Origin: Thermoanaerobaculia bacterium
GTDB taxonomy: Bacteria; Acidobacteriota; Thermoanaerobaculia; UBA5066
Assembly: GCA_022071945.1 (NCBI GenBank)
Contig: JAJVIN010000036.1
Coordinates: forward strand, 1-59,047
Length of the DNA: 59,047 nucleotides
Reading direction: 5' to 3'
Part shown: positions 14,577 to 46,505 of the stretch, one piece after another
How positions within the stretch are numbered: position 1 is the first letter of the stretch
How the letters are laid out: each line of letters begins with the position of its first letter
The notes under the pieces: generated by a model
What the model was told of the DNA's origin: nothing
Databases searched by the model: none
The model's input: the letters and a program-made list of their open reading frames with translations, nothing else
Made by a program: the position numbers and the translations under genes

Positions 14577-16430
14577 CTACTTCAGGAGCGACGCAAGTTG
14601 CTTCTCCACGCTCGGGTGGAGGTCCGGCGCCGCCCCGAAATACGAACCTCTGGAACGGCCCTTGCCGTCGAAAACGAAGAGCGCCGGCACGGCACTCACA
14701 TCCCCGAAGGCGCGAACCATCTCCGGCGTGCCCATGGCCCACTCGAACGGGAGATCGAGTTCGCCGGCCAGCTTCTTCACGTTCGCCTCATCCGAGTCGA
14801 CCGCGACGGTCACGACGGTCAGCCGGTCTCCATGACGCTTCTTCAACTCGCCCAGCCAGCGCAGCGTGCCCCTGCAGGGCGGACACCACGTCGCCCAGAA
14901 CTCGACGATCACCACGCGGCCGGAGAGGCTGCCTGCCGAGAGCTGCGTGCCGTCGAGCTTCGTGACCGAGAACGCCGGGATCCGAGCGAGTTCGCCCGCC
15001 CTGGCGGGGCCAGCGGTCTTTCGAGCGGCTGCCTTCTTCCCTTCCAGGATGAGATCGATCATCCGGGAGAGGTCCGCGCGGAACCGGTTGTGGCTTTCCG
15101 CGCTCTTCCAGGGCGCGTAGCGCCCGTTCTCGGCACCTTCACCCTTCCCGTAGAAGCCGAAGTCCTTGGGGGTCGCCACCAGGATGTCGTCAACGAAGAT
15201 GGCCGGGTACCGTGTCACCCCGAAGCGCTTCGCGAGACTGGAATCCCCGTAGTTCTCGACCACGAACCGGACCTTTCCTCCGTACTGGTTGGCGACGCTT
15301 CTTCCCAGCAAACTTGCCGGGTCGGAGACGTTTCACGTGAAGGGCCACCGGACAAGCGTCACGGTGACCGCGGGCGCTGGTAACGGCGGCACGGAGCGAG
15401 CGGGAAGCAGAGCCGCGAAGTACCTCGGCAGAACGTCCTCGACGATCGCGGCGGCGACAGCCGGACTGCCAGGAGTCACCGGATCCGCCAGGTCCTCCTC
15501 GGCCAGTTCGACGAACAGACGGCCGAGACTGCTATCTGGCTCTTGTGCGGAGACTCGAGCTTCAAGGGCACGAAGCTGCCCCTCGAGCACGGTTTTCTCC
15601 GGCAGCGGCGCTGACCGGCGCAGGGTCGCGAACCTCACGGCTGCCTGAAGGTACCTGAGGAGCGCTCCGTGGCGCAGTCCCGCCGCATCGAGTTCCCTGG
15701 CCTCCTTCAGCGTTCCGCTGATGCTGATGAAGACCGCGTGCTTGTCGATGGCGGCCGGCGGCCGGTAGGCCGAGAGGACTTCGTTTTCCAGGGCGTCGAG
15801 TTCGGGACGGAGGCTGCGCACCGGCAGCGGCGGACGTTCAGAGGGAGCAGACAACTCCCGGCAGAACGCGGCGAAATCTCGCTGACCGAGCGCCGCCCCG
15901 ATATAGAAGAGCCCGTACTGGGGCATGGTGTTGCGGCCGTACTCGAGACTGGCCTCGTGATAGATGCGCGCCTGAGGTAACGCGGCCTCCCCGATGGCTC
16001 TCACGGCCGCGGGTGTCACGCCATCGAAGGCGCGACCGGAGACTGGCGACGAATCCTGGCCCAGCAGGGCGCCCGCGCGCTTCCATTCCGCCTCGAATCT
16101 CGCATCGTCCATGACCTTCAGGTCCCCGCGCTCCGCGACATAGATCGACGCGGCGAGGTTCCCCCTCACGGCGCTGAGTCTGTGCAAGGCCAGGAAGCGG
16201 CGGCCGCCCTTCAACGCAGCCTCCGCCCGCTTCAAGACGGGCTCCGAGCCATCCCTCACCTGGGTCCACAGCTCGTCCTTCGAGGGGTTCTCCTTCAGGA
16301 AGGAGGACCACCGGGCGACATCGGCGGCGAGCTTGTCTTGCGCTTCTTCCGCACTCGCGGTCGAACCGAGGACCGCGAAAAGGGCCAGCGCGGCAACGGA
16401 GGGAGTCCGTCTCGTGATCGCGCCTGTCAC
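14577..16430 (-). CDS. Candidate selenoprotein: thioredoxin-fold protein with UxxS site plus TlpA-like domain
   Basis: The gene reads through an in-frame TGA at 15333-15335, giving 617 codons with the UGA at residue 366. The GTG at 16430 has a GGGAG site 7 nt upstream and opens a signal peptide ([20 protein letters not shown]). Residues 30-350 are helical and unfamiliar. Then comes a thioredoxin fold: strand [38 protein letters not shown] and a cis-Pro loop [10 protein letters not shown]. Counting back from the conserved Tyr-Gly-Lys region, the UGA falls exactly on the first Cys of CxxC and a Ser on the second. A TlpA/ResA-like domain follows, with FWATWCPPC (Cys516, Cys519). A SECIS-like hairpin lies just after the UGA. 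I infer a periplasmic thiol redox protein; a nonsense mutation that split the gene is the alternative. Confidence 0.75.
15304..15321 (-). promoter_or_regulatory. SECIS-like hairpin after the UGA of the thioredoxin-like gene
   Basis: Eleven nt after the TGA, CCCGGCA pairs with TGCTGGG (one G-T wobble) around the loop AGTT. The loop begins 19 nt after the UGA and has a G at its second position. This fits the bacterial SECIS pattern: an apical loop about 16-37 nt downstream of the UGA with a G among its first two loop bases. Confidence 0.65.
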
Positions 16431-16679
16431 CGGCAGTCTCCCGCCCCGGTCTCGATGTTCTCGACGAGCGTCTTCCCAGCAATGGCCTGCCGGGACCAGG
16501 ACTCCGGGCGACACGGCTGGTGCGGGCACCGACGGATCCGAGACTGCATGAAGGGAACCTCCAGTGGCTCATACGGCGATCGATCGAGCAGGTTTCGAGA
16601 TCGCTTCAGGTCTGGGGTCCACGGAACAGCGCCGAGGCGAAAGGGACGCTCGAGAGACGCGGTGCCTCGCCGCGCTGTT

Positions 16680-45392: not shown

Positions 45393-46505
45393 TCAGGGCC
45401 GGATCCGGATGCGCGCCTGGCGCGTTTCTTCTTCGAGAACTCTCCCAATTATCCTCGCCATCACCCCTTCCGCCTCGGCTCGCTTGACGAAATCCGATGC
45501 GTCCTTCTCCTCTAGGGCAAGGAGGAGCCCTCCGGAAGTCTGGGCATCGCATAAGAGAAGAAGGGTGCTCTCGGCAACGGACGAGGGGGCTTCCAGAAAC
45601 GGACGCTGGGTCTCGAGGTTCCGGACAGACCCGTCAGGAGCGATTCCAGCTTCCGCAAGACGCTCAGCCCCGGGCAGATACGGGATCGCGTCGAGCCAGA
45701 GCTCGGCGCACCGGGCCGGGGGACCAAGAAGCATCTCGCGCAGGTGACCGGCAAGACCGTATCCCGTGACATCTGTACACGCGGAGACTCGCAGGCCCCT
45801 CGCGAGTCTGGCAGGCGCGTCGTTCAGGGAGGCCATGACCTCCACGGCCGTCCGTTCCTCCTCGGCCGAGATCTCCGGTCCTCGCCGGAAGAAGCCTCCG
45901 AGCGCCCGGGCCCGAAGCGCGGAGGCGACCACTCCCGAGCCGAGAGGTTTCGTCAGGACCAAGGCGTCTCCGGCACGAACGCCCACGTTCCGCCAGATGT
46001 CGCCAAGCCGGGCCCTGCCCGTGACCGCCATCCCGAAGACCGGCACGTCAAAGTCGACGGAATGGCCGCCGAGCACCGGGATACCCGCGCGCCGGGCCGT
46101 CTCGCTTCCGCCTGAAACGATCTCGGTGAGGACCTCCAGCGGGAGATCCTTCACCGGGAACCCGACGATGTTGAGCGCGAAGAGCGGCTCGCCCCCCATC
46201 GCATAGATGTCCGAGAGCGAGTTGGCCGCGGCCACGCGGCCGAAGTCGAAGGGCGACTCCACGATCGGGGTGAAGAAATCGATGGTCGAAAGAATCGTCT
46301 CGGCGGACGGATCCGAAGGGTCGCCAAGGCAGTAAGCGGCTGCGTCGTCTGACGAAGACACCCCGACCACGGACCGGCCATCGGACGGCCTCGGAATCGT
46401 GGCCAGGATCCTCGCCAGGTCAGCCTGACCCAGCTTGCACGCTCACCCCGCCGCGGAGGCAAACGTCAGGATCGAGCGGTGGGTCTTCTTGCCCAGGATG
46501 GTCAT
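45393..46505 (-). CDS. selD: Selenide, water dikinase (selenophosphate synthetase) with in-frame UGA (Sec)
   Basis: The gene must be read through a TGA at 46443-46445 to include the catalytic loop: ATG at 46505, then MTILGKKTHRSILTFASAAG, UGA at residue 21, ACKLGQADLARILAT. In E. coli SelD the same loop is GAGCGCK, and the UGA falls on the catalytic Cys17; the next Cys and the essential Lys are kept (ACK). The rest (370 aa in total) is complete: SSSDDAAAY, TIDFFTPIVESPFDFGRVAA, NSLSDIYAMGGEP, LGGHSVDFDVPVFG, TDVTGYGLAGHL and DAQTSGGLLLAL. SelD makes selenophosphate for selenocysteine and selenouridine synthesis. Sec-containing SelD is well known. An automatic call would start too late, at the GTG at 46370. 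Confidence 0.93.
46414..46434 (-). promoter_or_regulatory. SECIS-like hairpin after the selD UGA
   Basis: Eight nt after the UGA, a 9-bp stem (GCTGGGTCA with TGACCTGGC, two G-T pairs) closes the loop GGC, which starts 18 nt after the UGA. The G at the first loop position and the distance fit a bacterial SECIS and closely match the hairpin in the thioredoxin-like gene. Confidence 0.7.

Follow-up and report, generated by a model that had tools for sequence, protein, structure and literature searches.

A probable UGA-encoded selenoprotein family of Acidobacteriota joins a predicted UxxS thioredoxin-fold domain to a TlpA-like domain

The window, by which we mean the whole stretch of 59,047 nucleotides analysed here, carries on its minus strand a single frame of 617 codons that runs from 16430 down to 14577 and contains only one TGA (15335-15333; Table 1). 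Under the standard code this frame is read as two open frames, 15333-16529 and 14577-15311. The initial annotation, made from the letters alone and with no strand given, had observed that the two lie in the same frame with coding character on both sides of the TGA, and both observations are borne out by comparison with related genomes. A search of 61 such genomes returned three relatives of full length (55, 46 and 41% identity), in which coding continues in frame across the TGA and each of which has exactly one internal TGA. In an alignment of 26, the full-length relatives are 33-59% identical to the window gene. Reading 14577-16430 on the plus strand gives a broken, non-coding frame, and we discarded that reading.

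Table 1. Features of the candidate selenoprotein gene and the Sec-containing SelD gene, in window coordinates
Feature	Position	Strand	Basis or remark
Selenoprotein gene (candidate)	14577..16430	-	Single frame, 617 codons including UGA as Sec; start taken as GTG; stop codon TAG, 14579-14577
Probable signal peptide	16350..16430	-	Judged by eye; start codon uncertain
N-terminal all-helical domain, about 308 aa, long form only	15411..16334	-	Predicted helices, pLDDT mostly 84-97
Sec thioredoxin-fold domain (predicted), ending RYPAIFVDD	15036..15371	-	Predicted model, mean pLDDT 86.3 when folded alone
In-frame UGA, probable selenocysteine 366	15333..15335	-	UGA in 39/39 distinct homologues
Bacterial SECIS hairpin (candidate)	15304..15321	-	+15 to +32, counting the U of UGA as 1; the core, +16 to +31, is conserved and lies at window 15305-15320
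C-terminal TlpA/ResA/DsbE-like thioredoxin domain	14580..14984	-	Pfam Redoxin 2.3e-14, AhpC-TSA 3.5e-12
Dithiol motif Cys516-Pro-Pro-Cys519 (WATWCPPC)	14874..14885	-	Both Cys invariant in 26 aligned full-length relatives
Sec-containing SelD gene	45393-46505	-	TGA at 46445-46443

Profile searches and a species-level genome scan left, after removal of duplicates, 39 distinct homologues with identities down to 33%. All 39 have UGA at the Sec codon, with zero Cys, other residues or stops, and all share the motif RWP[FY]T-U-x-x-S-DPA around the TGA, which in the window gene reads RWPFT-U-NVS-DPA. The scan, which covered one genome per species in GTDB 220 and contributed 24 loci, was unbiased towards UGA, since the peptide patterns used to locate genes all lay downstream (3') of the Sec codon and left that codon out. 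Cys or UGA had been expected in this column; the UGA part of the expectation holds throughout, the Cys part found no example, and the unrelated residues or natural ends that would have pointed to two genes or a nonsense mutation are absent. A standard gene finder would indeed call two open frames here, as it would for two separate genes, or for one gene carrying a nonsense mutation or a sequencing error in a single genome. However, the same UGA recurs in 39 distinct homologues from many genomes, the hairpin behind it is conserved, and the frame is continuous through the UGA in all homologues, which makes this explanation vanishingly improbable; the UGA-bearing homologues by themselves rule out two genes or a nonsense mutation. 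UGA as a genome-wide sense codon was likewise ruled out, because many genes of the family themselves terminate at TGA. We read the locus as one selenoprotein gene, neither two genes nor a broken one, whose UGA almost certainly encodes selenocysteine, judging from these sequence comparisons.

By the profile of the Sec region, the family occurs in 9 of 149 genomes searched within the class and in 15 of 396 searched within the phylum, and most relatives come from MAGs. Nearly all of the 39 are from Acidobacteriota: record titles in the GTDB 220 scan name Acidobacteria or Acidobacteriota, Thermoanaerobaculia, Vicinamibacteria and Terriglobia, and Planctomycetota for five. Four of the five Planctomycetota-titled MAG homologues (L070, L074, L078, L086 and L087) branch among Acidobacteriota sequences in the tree, L086 being a long and unsure branch; such homologues could reflect gene transfer, or their record titles may disagree with the genome taxonomy. 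A search for viral and plasmid relatives returned none beyond generic TlpA.

The genome that carries the window gene has tRNA-Sec (anticodon TCA), SelA, SelB and two SelD genes, so that selA, selB and tRNA-Sec, the genes that the initial annotation proposed to look for, are all present together with selD. Across the phylum, SelB scores above cut-off in 254 of 396 genomes and in all 15 carriers of the family (hypergeometric p 0.0011, a value that ignores shared ancestry). The Sec-containing SelD, already recognized in the initial annotation, lies within the window about 30 kb from the selenoprotein gene and has the active-site motif SAAG-U-ACK. The second SelD (L092, on contig C7, around 179145-180071) has Cys in place of Sec (GCACK) and is preceded, within the same 750-codon open frame, by a fused cysteine desulfurase (NifS/IscS-like) domain, so that the genome holds in total one Sec-SelD and one Cys-SelD/desulfurase fusion.

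An 18-nt hairpin with a G in its loop, at the distance expected of a bacterial SECIS, had been noted downstream of the UGA; it is present and is kept in the 39 relatives. With the U of UGA as position 1, the window hairpin, CCCGGCA-AGUU-UGCUGGG, occupies positions 15-32 with G23 in the loop, and positions 16-31 read CCRGCA-RGUY-UGCUGG in nearly every one of the 39 sequences. The constraint over +16 to +31 in these sequences exceeds what the protein needs. At +6, Ala is encoded by GCA in 39/39, whereas GCA makes up 5.6% of the Ala codons elsewhere in the same genes, and the Ser or Gly codon in the hairpin ends in T in 39/39, compared with 5.4% AGT among Ser codons and 8.3% GGT among Gly codons elsewhere. 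AGT is always followed by TTG (21 sequences) and GGT always by CTG (18 sequences), without exception, so that positions 22 and 25 stay complementary; these codon counts are inflated by related sequences, and the AGT/GGT switch represents about three changes on the tree. RNA covariation is weak, the stem being almost invariant and its one covarying position having changed only about three times on the tree, and with too few independent pairs for a test we did not take covariation as independent proof of a SECIS. Single-sequence folding is modestly better than for shuffled sequences (z -0.5 to -2.6, with -2.0 for the window sequence). The candidate SECIS is thus convincing through its conservation in 39 relatives, the window sequence alone being only modestly above chance. 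The hairpin can also be compared with the SECIS of E. coli fdhF, whose apex at positions 19-28, checked in an E. coli collection, is GCAGGUCUGC. An identical apex at the same distance from the UGA occurs in 18 of the 39 family members, and G23 and U24 are at the same distance in all 39. The two differ in the stem, which is CCRGCA/UGCUGG in the family, and in a bulged U17 that we take to be present in the E. coli fdhF SECIS and that has no equivalent in the family hairpin.

The full-length model (mean pLDDT 85.5) consists of a helical N-terminal domain, a Sec-bearing thioredoxin-like domain and a TlpA domain. Like the window protein, most relatives show, when judged by eye, a basic N-terminus followed by a hydrophobic segment, and the protein is very probably exported. 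The helical N-terminal domain has no match in Pfam or NCBIfam. For the Sec domain folded alone, the top Foldseek matches of the model are nearly all thioredoxins (best E 0.0014), and alignment of the model with a designed thioredoxin by VIA-align gives Z 10.1 and rmsd 2.0 over 83 aligned residues. The predicted order of elements is beta-alpha-beta-alpha-beta-beta-alpha with a cis-Pro loop, and the family keeps an invariant YP at 408-409. A thioredoxin fold is predicted for this domain. Its motif is UxxS, with the Ser at +3 invariant, which differs from the CxxC or UxxC of the thioredoxin family proper, and its score stays under the Pfam Thioredoxin threshold. The C-terminal domain has the Redoxin/AhpC-TSA profile, the predicted thioredoxin fold and the CxxC expected of a TlpA/ResA protein; TlpA domain matches fill the structure search with the full model, and the model of the domain aligns with the DsbE structure 3gl3 at VIA-align Z 20.1 and rmsd 1.9 over 138 residues. 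The initial proposal of a thioredoxin fold fused to TlpA therefore describes both halves correctly as far as predicted folds can tell. Its further proposal of a periplasmic protein with one selenothiol and one dithiol domain fits the signal-peptide-like N-termini and the WCPPC motif, both parts standing as predictions.

The helical domain of about 300 residues is not a fixed part of the architecture. Five short forms (L110, L111, L112, L113 and L115) have a signal-like start followed directly by the Sec and TlpA domains, and in two further homologues (L089 and L091) the part before the Sec domain is short as well, their starts being uncertain. On the tree, the presence or absence of the helical domain takes about three changes, compatible with gain or with loss. 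The pair of Sec and TlpA domains is kept in every homologue, short forms included, and thus forms the constant unit of the family, which suggests that the two domains work together. Taking the selenoprotein and its two-domain anatomy as a whole, and leaving the substrate out of this judgement, we consider the description highly probable.

Different comparisons place the Sec on different positions of the thioredoxin CxxC. The motif given in the initial annotation, UxxS, is right by sequence (UNVS), and its placing of the UGA on the first Cys is favoured both by the model and by an alignment of the DsbA-like type; an alignment with thioredoxins favours the second. In that case the Sec would replace the second, C-terminal Cys, the motif would really be PxxU, and Ser369 would not be a substitute at the resolving position. 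A profile alignment with an Acidobacteriota thioredoxin does set the U under the second Cys of WCGPC, and an alignment with a PDB thioredoxin gives the same placement. However, the alignment with the Acidobacteriota thioredoxin requires a three-residue gap within the following helix, whereas in the DsbA-like alignment U and S fall under the first and the second Cys, respectively, and the alignment runs gap-free through the helix and the strand. In the model, the U lies five residues past strand 1 and three before the helix, nearer to the first Cys of the TlpA domain (four after its strand and one before its helix) than to the second. With these observations combined, we find it unlikely that the Sec has taken the second position, and the first-Cys placement is used in what follows.

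We propose that tRNA-Sec and SelB would insert selenocysteine at UGA 366 under the direction of the hairpin just downstream, giving a UxxS motif with Ser where the second, resolving Cys usually stands. The single selenol could then attack a substrate outside the cytoplasm, a peroxide or an oxidised sulfur, and so become a selenenic acid or form a mixed selenosulfide, either of which the neighbouring TlpA dithiol may resolve and reduce, with a membrane protein of the DsbD/CcdA type recharging the dithiol in turn. A DsbD/CcdA-type protein is present in 18/18 carriers, such proteins being widespread anyway. Recycling of the Sec domain by the fused TlpA domain is the step towards which we lean slightly, since UxxS has no resolving thiol of its own and the fused CxxC is the only partner kept in every homologue; the transfer itself is deduced from the fusion alone. 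The substrate may be a peroxide, a sulfenate, a disulfide or of another class. Apart from the gene itself and overlapping frames, no cluster common to at least four loci lies near the gene, so operon partners were rejected and no substrate can be named from outside the protein.

Two other explanations were weighed. The Sec domain might be a selenol peroxidase or a glutaredoxin-like enzyme with its own external reductant, the TlpA domain acting beside it as an independent thiol-disulfide enzyme. Thioredoxin-fold enzymes with one selenol or thiol and a Ser or Thr at the fourth position do exist, such as the UxxT of glutathione peroxidase, and both UxxS and UxxT rows appear in a recent inventory (PMC13188914). 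The TlpA domain, however, is kept in every homologue seen, while the N-terminal domain can be lost, and we regard independent action of the two domains as rather doubtful. The second possibility concerns the UGA as a partly efficient stop, which would yield a secreted N-terminal protein of 365 residues alongside the full selenoprotein, in a ratio that reports selenium supply. UGA recoding is generally incomplete, and the large helical domain that precedes the UGA in the long form could fold alone. The short forms L110-L113 and L115, however, keep the UGA without any domain before it, so that a separate N-terminal product is not the general reason for the UGA, and we consider this use of the codon very improbable.

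No Cys homologue at the family level was found in the 149 class and 396 phylum genomes or in the species-level scan, an absence bounded by these collections. In a relaxed search of the 396 genomes (E up to 5), the weakest member of the family, with UGA like all the others, stands at E 1.6e-48, after which nothing appears before E 0.01; from there on the matches are unrelated DsbA-like, thioredoxin and other proteins, the best being DsbA-like or thioredoxin proteins of the general superfamily. According to the authors of deep-Sep, Cys homologues now seem to exist for every known selenoprotein, an empirical rule that is not part of the definition, and their method may filter out selenoproteins that lack them (PMC12013277). 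Discovery by pairing UGA with Cys homologues would therefore drop this family. We give even chances to a selenocysteine-only family, in which the reaction would be impossible with Cys and lineages would keep or lose the UGA gene and never swap in Cys. If no Cys form exists, then, with a Ser-backed selenol and an ordinary CxxC in one molecule, the protein would offer a direct test of what selenium can do beyond sulfur.

The family appears to be undescribed, and adds to the known selenoproteins a widespread one whose gene standard annotation cuts in two. Among the 119 families and subfamilies of a 2026 inventory of selenoproteins (PMC13188914), where families lacking models were compared by description, none joins a UxxS thioredoxin domain to TlpA, in agreement with the initial annotation, according to which such a pairing of selenothiol and dithiol domains is not known to have been described. 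Only the TlpA half matches NCBIfam (June 2026), below cut-offs, and the literature on selenoproteins with TlpA, in Acidobacteriota or in Thermoanaerobaculia, yielded no description. Earlier detection is possible in a groundwater MAG survey with unnamed candidates that the inventory cites (PMC13188914).

Several known systems resemble parts of the protein. Sec thioredoxins, DsbG-like proteins, SaoT and other UxxC selenoproteins also carry Sec in a thioredoxin fold, at the first Cys or close to it; however, they keep the second Cys and have Cys relatives, whereas in our family the Ser never varies and our searches gave no Cys relative. The peroxiredoxin-like selenoprotein of cd02970 (PMC13188914) shares UxxS in a protein of the thioredoxin superfamily, although no peroxiredoxin profile matches the Sec domain of our family, the comparison being with the inventory row alone. 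The UGC-containing TlpA selenoproteins (NF041054, WAxxUGC_long; PMC13188914) similarly combine Sec with a TlpA-like domain, but their Sec sits in the WAxxUGC of a ResA-like domain, whereas here the Sec has a UxxS domain of its own and TlpA carries a plain CPPC. The NF041054 model scores 31 bits against the window protein, far from its cut-off of 300, and only in the TlpA (CPPC) half, which places the protein outside that family. Finally, the C-terminal domain is itself an oxidoreductase of the TlpA/ResA/DsbE-CcmG type by sequence and predicted fold, with WCPPC, although its sequence scores lie far under the NCBIfam equivalog cut-offs, and it differs from these oxidoreductases in being preceded by a second, Sec-bearing domain of predicted thioredoxin fold.
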